The position numbers were made by a program, and so were the translations under genes. From positions 1,364,001 to 1,428,000 of the forward strand of contig CAJVGD010000002.1 in assembly GCA_910890315.1 (NCBI GenBank): a DNA stretch of 64,000 nucleotides. Reading direction: 5' to 3'. The stretch comes from Serendipita indica DSM 11827 (Eukaryota; Basidiomycota; Agaricomycetes; Sebacinales; Serendipitaceae). Under the pieces are notes generated by a model. It was given only the letters and a program-made list of their open reading frames with translations, searched no databases and had not been told where the DNA came from. How positions within the stretch are numbered: position 1 is the first letter of the stretch; each line of letters opens with the position of its first letter. Below, one piece after another: positions 18,686-19,565 of this stretch.

Positions 18686-19565
18686 TCAGATCGTAGGCTT
18701 GGTGCCCTTGAAACAGGTTAGCAGCCGACATAAGGTGGAGGAGATTGACATACAGGTTGGAACTGATAGGTAAGACCTAGAAACGATGAGTAATGCACTT
18801 CAACAAACCAAAGTAAGCATACCGCATTTGCCACAGTACTGCCTGTCGTGATGGAAGGCCATGAAAACACCGGCGCCGCACTCGGCGTTCTGAGCACGAA
18901 TCAGTCTATGGAAATTACATGGATTGTTGAAACACACCGGGCACTCCTTTCTGAGACGCTTGATCTTGCCATCCGAATCGACCTTGTAGTACTTGAGGAT
19001 GGCCATCTTGACCTTCTTCCTCTTGTGCTTGACCTTCTTCGGAGTGTTGTAGGTCTTCTTCTTGCGCTTCTTAGCACCTCCTCGGAGCCTTAAAATCTCA
19101 GAAATTGATGCCAAAACCAGGGTCAAACTGACGCACCTCAGTACAAGATGGAGAGTCGACTCCTTTTGAATGTTGTAGTCGCTCAACGTGCGACCATCTT
19201 CGAGTTGCTTTCCGGCAAAGATAAGACGCTGCTGGTCCGGGGGGATTCCCTCCTTGTCTTGGATCTTGGTCTTGACATTGTCAATAGTATCCGAGGACTC
19301 AACCTCGACTAGAGTTTCGTCAGAGGCTAACTTAGTTATAGTATTTGTGAACGCTTACGAGTGATGGTTTTACCCGTGAGGCTACAAAAATAAGTGGTCA
19401 GTAAGTACATACTCGACAATAAAGTATCAAGAAATCCCACGTCTGTAGGATCATGGTAAGTATACACTTCAGCTGGACACGGTGCAACGCGTACTTTGAC
19501 CTGAAAAGATATGTCAGCTTATACGCAGGGCCACGAGAGAAAATGAAACGCACGAAAATCTGCAT
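18686..19565 (-). CDS. UBI3: Ubiquitin / 40S ribosomal protein S27a fusion
   Basis: Precursor cleaved to free ubiquitin and ribosomal protein eS31. Ubiquitin is complete: [20 protein letters not shown] through [12 protein letters not shown]. The S27a part follows as [40 protein letters not shown] and the zinc-finger Cys pairs in [13 protein letters not shown] and YCGKC, ending [14 protein letters not shown]. The first three exons are tiny: 12 nt (19554-19565, MQIF), 6 nt (19495-19500, VK) and 2 nt (19441-19442, the first two bases of the Thr codon). The 53-, 52- and 59-nt introns between them all carry good donors and acceptors. Further introns split ITL/EVE, LR/LRGG, ECP/NAEC, KCG/LTY and the last codons. 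Expected to be very highly expressed; no obvious TATA was seen upstream. Confidence 0.93.
19441..19442 (-). other. UBI3: Candidate 2-nt micro-exon (AC) in ubiquitin-S27a
   Basis: On the minus strand the sequence reads CCTACAG, then AC, then GTGGGATT. Inserting just AC between the GTCAAA exon and the exon starting CCTCACGGG yields Val-Lys-Thr-Leu-Thr-Gly, the invariant ubiquitin sequence. Omitting it shifts the frame. The downstream intron has an ideal TACTGAC branch point and TTTTTGTAG acceptor. Confidence 0.7.

Follow-up and report, generated by a model that had tools for sequence, protein, structure and literature searches.

The question raised by this locus is whether a coding exon of only two nucleotides can be a genuine part of a ubiquitin gene. 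The window, which is the whole 64,000-nt stretch of the Serendipita indica DSM 11827 genome that was analysed, carries a complete ubiquitin-S27a fusion gene on the minus strand (19565-18686) with nine coding exons of 12, 6, 2, 23, 172, 151, 67, 23 and 21 nt, the last including the stop, and with introns 1 to 4 of 53, 52, 59 and 50 nt. The product is a protein of 158 aa in which an intact ubiquitin (residues 1-76) is followed by the S27a extension, as in ubiquitin-S27a (eS31) fusions; PF01599 was over its cut-off at the locus, as two pieces with an intron between them, and an Rfam scan of the window at gathering scores gave no match. The parts of the gene are these.

Exon 1, 19554-19565, minus strand: ATGCAGATTTTC, 12 nt coding for MQIF
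Intron 1, 19501-19553, minus strand: 53 nt, GTGCGT...CAG, with a branch-like CTGAC whose A is 14 nt from the 3′ end
Exon 2, 19495-19500, minus strand: GTCAAA, 6 nt coding for VK
Intron 2, 19443-19494, minus strand: 52 nt, GTACGC...CAG, with a branch-like CTTAC whose A is 15 nt from the 3′ end
Exon 3, 19441-19442, minus strand: AC, 2 nt, bases 1-2 of the Thr7 codon; also in the L40 and polyubiquitin-B genes
Intron 3, 19382-19440, minus strand: 59 nt, GTGGGA...TAG, with TACTGAC; the A of its CTGAC is 17 nt from the 3′ end
Exon 4, 19359-19381, minus strand: 23 nt, C + LTGKTIT + C
Intron 4, 19309-19358, minus strand: 50 nt, GTAAGC...TAG; the L40 gene has an intron at this position too
Exon 5, 19137-19308, minus strand: 172 nt, ubiquitin body
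Exon 6, 18938-19088, minus strand: 151 nt, last part of ubiquitin and first part of S27a
Exon 7, 18823-18889, minus strand: 67 nt, S27a
Exon 8, 18754-18776, minus strand: 23 nt, S27a
Exon 9, 18686-18706, minus strand: 21 nt, last part of S27a and the TGA stop

The AC at 19442-19441 thus lies between CAG and GTGGGA and falls below the 3 nt that bound an ultra-short micro-exon. The initial annotation had named the gene as ubiquitin-S27a, given its first exons as 12, 6 and 2 nt and their introns as 53, 52 and 59 nt, and placed a TACTGAC branch site in the third intron, and all of this, with its coordinates, was re-derived from the sequence. It had also held that no other pairing of splice sites restores VKTLTG, and this was borne out by a depth-first exhaustive search over all splice combinations giving the expected ubiquitin N-terminus, which returned one solution for the first 18 codons of S27a with GT-AG introns and still one when GC-AG and AT-AC introns were added. 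For the first 14 codons a single solution remained when the donor was left free and the acceptor kept as AG, and likewise when the acceptor was left free and the donor kept as GT, with no one-intron or two-intron solution in either setting. Over 40 codons with GC-AG and AT-AC permitted there were 26 solutions, every one of them with the 12/6/2 start, and a separately written spliced aligner gave S27a exons identical to those of the exhaustive search. Single-intron, double-intron and non-canonical readings of S27a were rejected, the search having left 12/6/2 alone, and AC is needed for the reading frame, being part of the sole solution that yields ubiquitin. When the DNA separating exon 1 from exon 4 was dinucleotide-shuffled, solutions arose in 0/3000 cases with GT donors and in 2/3000 with GC allowed.

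The same arrangement recurs in the genome. Four ubiquitin genes were found in the assembly searched (24.7 Mb, 55 contigs), and the 12/6/2 split is present in three of them, S27a, ubiquitin-L40 (L009) and polyubiquitin-B (L011). The L40 gene, on the minus strand of contig C2 near 1.07 Mb (G000:C2:1068500-1071500), starts with exons of 12/6/2/23 nt, ATGCAGATTTTC / GTAAAG / AC / CCTGACGGG, where the introns are 46, 65 and 50 nt long; polyubiquitin-B, near 1.05 Mb of C44 (G000:C44:1044500-1047500, from 803 onward), reads ATGCAGATCTTT / GTCAAG / AC / TCTTACTGG, and its introns are 50, 82 and 54 nt long. Intron 2 has a GC donor in both (GCAGGT in L40, GCAAGC in polyubiquitin-B), and with GT-AG introns alone neither gene has any solution. 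With GC-AG and AT-AC introns permitted over 40 codons, the 12/6/2 start was found in all nine solutions for L40 and in 59 of 140 for polyubiquitin-B, where the rejected remainder includes readings that skip the first repeat and the one with fewest introns uses an intron of 364 nt; limited to the first repeat, polyubiquitin-B has a single solution when the donor is free and the acceptor AG. Neither gene has a one- or two-intron solution with GT-AG introns, or with the donor free and the acceptor AG. With a GT donor and a free acceptor, L40 has five solutions at three introns or fewer, with one two-intron alternative ending ATTT, and these were rejected as non-canonical. Among dinucleotide shuffles, solutions appeared for L40 in 9/3000 (GT) and 8/3000 (GC allowed), and for polyubiquitin-B in 0/3000 and 18/3000, respectively. 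Introns at the same position in the three genes have no clear similarity, the top z being 2.5 for intron 3 of L40 against that of polyubiquitin-B, so recent copying does not account for the split; the pattern may be older than the divergence of the three ubiquitin genes, or it may have spread among them by gene conversion.

In the 24.7-Mb assembly a single locus was found for the S27a extension and a single one for that of L40, and therefore a functional S27a or L40 product depends on joining the micro-exons. If AC is omitted, the S27a reading becomes MQIFVKPHG* and that of L40 MQIFVKPDG*, both with a stop at codon 10; the same omission in polyubiquitin-B gives a longer out-of-frame product with no early stop, and omission of GTCAAA from S27a gives an in-frame ubiquitin without Val5-Lys6.

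Related genes give some indication of how the array may have been assembled. The fourth ubiquitin gene, polyubiquitin-A (L010), was modelled with the Lys6/Thr7 intron only, an alternative with a 299-nt intron joining repeat 1 to repeat 2 having been rejected. The NEDD8 gene (L151, G000:C5:1865900-1867500, minus strand), modelled with exons of 18, 18, 30, 83 and 79 nt at 84% identity to the target sequence used, has among its introns one after codon 6 (MIIKVK / TLTGKE), as in all four ubiquitin genes. In polyubiquitin-B, repeat 3 contains the Thr7 phase-2 intron and lacks the Lys6/Thr7 intron, and within this one gene the Thr7 phase-2 site therefore occurs both with and without a preceding 2-nt exon. 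From these patterns in polyubiquitin-A, NEDD8 and polyubiquitin-B repeat 3, the middle (Lys6/Thr7) intron looks oldest and the outer two seem to have been added later.

Splice sites were compared with 55 introns modelled in 13 control loci of the same genome, comprising three H4 and five H3 genes, calmodulin, two actin-type genes, EF-1alpha and beta-tubulin, with some models imperfect at their ends (several without a stop codon, one H3 with a doubtful first exon). The donor of S27a intron 3, GAC/GTGGGA, scored lower than all 55 control introns, and the GC donors of intron 2 lay at the 0th percentile in L40 and the 5th in polyubiquitin-B, a contrast that is somewhat inflated in that the control aligner favours consensus donors and penalises GC. 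The description of all donors in the initial annotation as good GT signals consequently fails for GTGGGA. GC donors were used in 0/55 controls (Fisher p 0.002); rescored as GT, those of L40 and polyubiquitin-B would stand at the 40th and 96th percentiles, and the intron 3 donor of polyubiquitin-B is at the 15th. Each gene, then, has one unusual donor in the pair of introns that flank AC, GTGGGA in S27a and GC in L40 and polyubiquitin-B. Acceptors of the micro-exon introns are inside the control range, and a YTNAY branch-like site is present in 9/9 micro-exon introns of the three genes and in 53/55 controls; intron 4 of L40 had none in the range scanned. Given the GTGGGA and GC donors, efficient inclusion of AC is not self-evident.

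On the models made here, very short exons appear not to be rare in this genome. Calmodulin (L147, G000:C15:33900-36000, minus strand) was modelled with exons of 15, 7, 12, 33, 273, 81, 11 and 15 nt, a run of micro-exons at the start and an 11-nt exon near the end, and an actin gene (L149, G000:C5:123200-126200, minus strand) with a 6-nt exon, TTGCCG, between neighbours of 37 and 28 nt. Three of 42 internal control exons measured 10 nt or less, and the 2-nt exons are the smallest among the genes modelled.

Taken together, the start of S27a is very probably a genuine, constitutive micro-exon array whose introns are removed singly by intron definition. That these introns are actually spliced in this way, in what order, and constitutively, we infer from the sequence. 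The spliceosome would recognise each short intron (50-60 nt) separately, exon length as such being no barrier, and intron definition should suffice for introns so short, every one of them with signals of its own. Only 2 nt separate the AG at which intron 2 ends from the GT that begins intron 3, so introns 2 and 3 are likely removed sequentially. U1 and the machinery of the 3′ site would contact bases that the intron 2 acceptor and the intron 3 donor share, and two spliceosomes could hardly use both sites around AC simultaneously, which would make removal consecutive; stepwise removal of the two introns is the likeliest route. Removal of intron 2 first would leave AAAC/GTGGGA, and removal of intron 3 first would leave CTACAG/ACCCTCACG, both presumably still usable. 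It is a testable idea that one unusual donor per gene would permit the order of splicing to differ gene by gene. The sequence analysis gives no sign of a dedicated recursive-splicing system over and above ordinary intron definition.

A stricter form of recursive splicing, in which intron 2, AC and intron 3 form one composite intron, AC is a re-splicing node, the weak donor fixes the order (intron 2 first in S27a, intron 3 first in L40 and polyubiquitin-B) and failure tunes the supply of ubiquitin and ribosomes, is possible but rather unlikely. It would fit the unusual donor beside AC in all three genes, the stop at codon 10 that follows AC skipping in S27a and L40, and the two-step removal around a 9-nt exon reported for potato invertase (as cited in PMC4674806). 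However, only three genes are concerned and their weak donors may merely be tolerated, the GC donors would be ordinary or strong if they were GT while polyubiquitin-B has a low-ranking intron 3 donor as well, and AC skipping in polyubiquitin-B gives no early stop. A further reading, that the 6-nt and 2-nt exons are old, agaricomycete-wide and kept as an obligatory two-step node at which the weak donor sets order and efficiency and AC inclusion acts as a rheostat, is still more doubtful. Were it true, the supply of ubiquitin and of ribosomal protein would be coupled to spliceosome capacity through AC inclusion, and every time AC was left out of either ribosomal fusion the stop at codon 10 would follow.

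Three other explanations would remove the 2-nt exon altogether or deprive it of function. Assemblies commonly go wrong through indels close to splice sites, the S27a donor after AC is weak, and the initial annotation itself had named a sequencing error at 19441 as a refutation; on such a view AC would truly belong to exon 2 as its last bases or to exon 4 as its first. But an AG/AC/GT exon stands at the same codon in two more loci, L40 and polyubiquitin-B, with unrelated intron sequences, and all three genes lack a one- or two-intron solution with GT-AG introns or with any donor and AG, by which a sequencing error is discounted and an error of assembly made highly improbable. It is about equally hard to believe that S27a is a decaying or non-expressed copy with its frame broken between exons 2 and 4. 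The weak donor would be expected of such a copy, but this is the sole S27a locus found in the assembly, the remaining protein is intact, its S27a part having 89-91% identity to the best named agaricomycete proteins among the matches listed (the closest named being Hymenopellis radicata and Rhizoctonia solani), and L40, likewise at a single locus, has the same structure. Least credible is a stwintron, where an outer intron has its donor or acceptor split by an inner one, with no exon in between; such structures are documented in ascomycete fungi (PMC5639578) and the introns here are closely packed, but AC must stay in the mRNA, S27a has no one- or two-intron solution, and every S27a intron around AC has a complete GT and AG of its own. 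A stwintron identity for S27a was rejected on this defining feature, and the micro-exon array remains the preferred reading.

Evidence from other species is indirect and appears to come mainly from one mis-annotated protein. The Russula vinacea protein P0041 starts MQIFPHWENDHSEVESSD, and its PHWENDHS, read from the protein alone, corresponds to exon 4 (LTGKTIT) out of frame and fused to MQIF. Of the 768 ways to code PHWENDHS, six yield TLTGKTIT when preceded by AC, and 1 in 20,000 random 7-mers fits, so the fit is unlikely by chance; it covers the join of exon 1 to exon 4, and re-entry into frame after exon 4 lies outside it. This implies that R. vinacea would share the outer two intron sites, and the 8 nt between them (GTNAARAC) could be one exon or two. 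N-termini of the form ...SLTGK in Mycena rosella (P0022) and Cryptococcus depauperatus (P0282) are compatible with a Thr7 phase-2 intron, and are weaker hints than that from Russula. Odd N-termini were seen in the ubiquitin-fusion records P0041, P0022, P0282 and P0004 (Rhizoctonia solani), and could come from introns or micro-exons around codons 4-8 that annotation missed.

A canonical ubiquitin start was present in 34/120 homologues of S27a (best 120 of 1098) and 23/120 of L40 (best 120 of 1051), many of the remainder being fragments, 5′ extensions or diverged ubiquitin that are uninformative on introns. The best 120 of 7969 matches to residues 1-60 of P0041 were by name and length largely multi-repeat polyubiquitins, and equally uninformative. 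Relatives of the ubiquitin core were taken from 11 loci in viral contigs and the best 80 of 468 in genome contigs, and 90 of these 91 loci are uninterrupted through the ubiquitin start. The sole interrupted one (L095) has a single 228-nt GT-AG intron after base 1 of codon 8, a site that differs from those of S27a, and a two-intron solution exists there too; its contig is labelled Verrucomicrobiales and is probably a eukaryotic contaminant. Loci L034-L036 and many of L039-L118, in viral or bacterial contigs, have ubiquitin domains after signal-peptide-like starts (...AFAMQIF), often followed by unrelated sequence, and are possibly exported bacterial ubiquitin-like proteins.

The initial annotation had placed a 2-nt exon at or below the size that can be recognised, which is too strong, since 1-nt exons with RNA evidence have been described in Arabidopsis APC11 (PMC4674806), plant VPS55 (PMC8831610) and Fusarium CYP621A (PMC12940212). 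The APC11 and VPS55 exons, according to these reports, resemble the S27a exon in being shorter than a codon, flanked by ordinary introns, essential to the frame and missed by annotation, and the APC11 authors prefer intron definition with stepwise removal, as proposed here for S27a; they differ in being 1 nt rather than 2, in plants, backed by RNA evidence and in genes other than ubiquitin, and the VPS55 exon is described as alternatively used in some plants. CYP621A, as reported, is closer in being fungal, with an exon below 3 nt that was revealed by misfitting exon phases and is conserved among relatives, but that exon is 1 nt (AG-G-GT), in an ascomycete P450, and confirmed by SRA reads, whereas the present one is 2 nt, in a basidiomycete, repeated in three ubiquitin paralogues, adjacent to a 6-nt exon and known from genomic sequence alone. 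The 2026 paper terms the CYP621A exon the first 1-nt exon for a fungal gene, and cites older work on exons of 2-5 bp in Arabidopsis, Drosophila and humans (PMC12940212). Fungal exons of 3 nt are described in lipS of Dactylellina (PMC5639578). The P450 genes of the white-rot basidiomycete Phanerochaete chrysosporium are reported to have, as here, frequent introns of 45-55 bp and tiny exons, although with a minimum of 6 bp (PMC1184071), and a rice transcript is described with two adjacent micro-exons, of 5 nt and 12 nt, which are longer, in a plant and in a single gene (PMC8831610). Stwintrons are, by the account in PMC5639578, fungal structures in which intron placement likewise forces consecutive removal, but there one intron splits the other's splice motif while here AC is kept between complete introns. 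No report of micro-exons in fungal ubiquitin genes was found among the matches listed in the open-licence PMC literature. Sub-codon exons are thus known as a kind, and what appears to be new is the 12/6/2 run in ubiquitin genes, carried by three paralogues in a genome that also supplies natural controls.

Sub-codon exons have rarely been published, and here there are three copies in one genome, in genes expected to be highly expressed. Controls are built in, since of the three introns polyubiquitin-A and NEDD8 have that at Lys6/Thr7 alone, while polyubiquitin-B repeat 3 has the Thr7 phase-2 intron but not the Lys6/Thr7 one, and it can therefore be measured directly in what order and how efficiently the introns beside a 2-nt exon are spliced. 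The micro-exon reading would account for at least one odd ubiquitin N-terminus in the databases, that of Russula vinacea, and it is a warning that gene callers will miss 2-nt exons. In S. indica, the splicing machinery apparently copes with a 2-nt exon in an essential gene.
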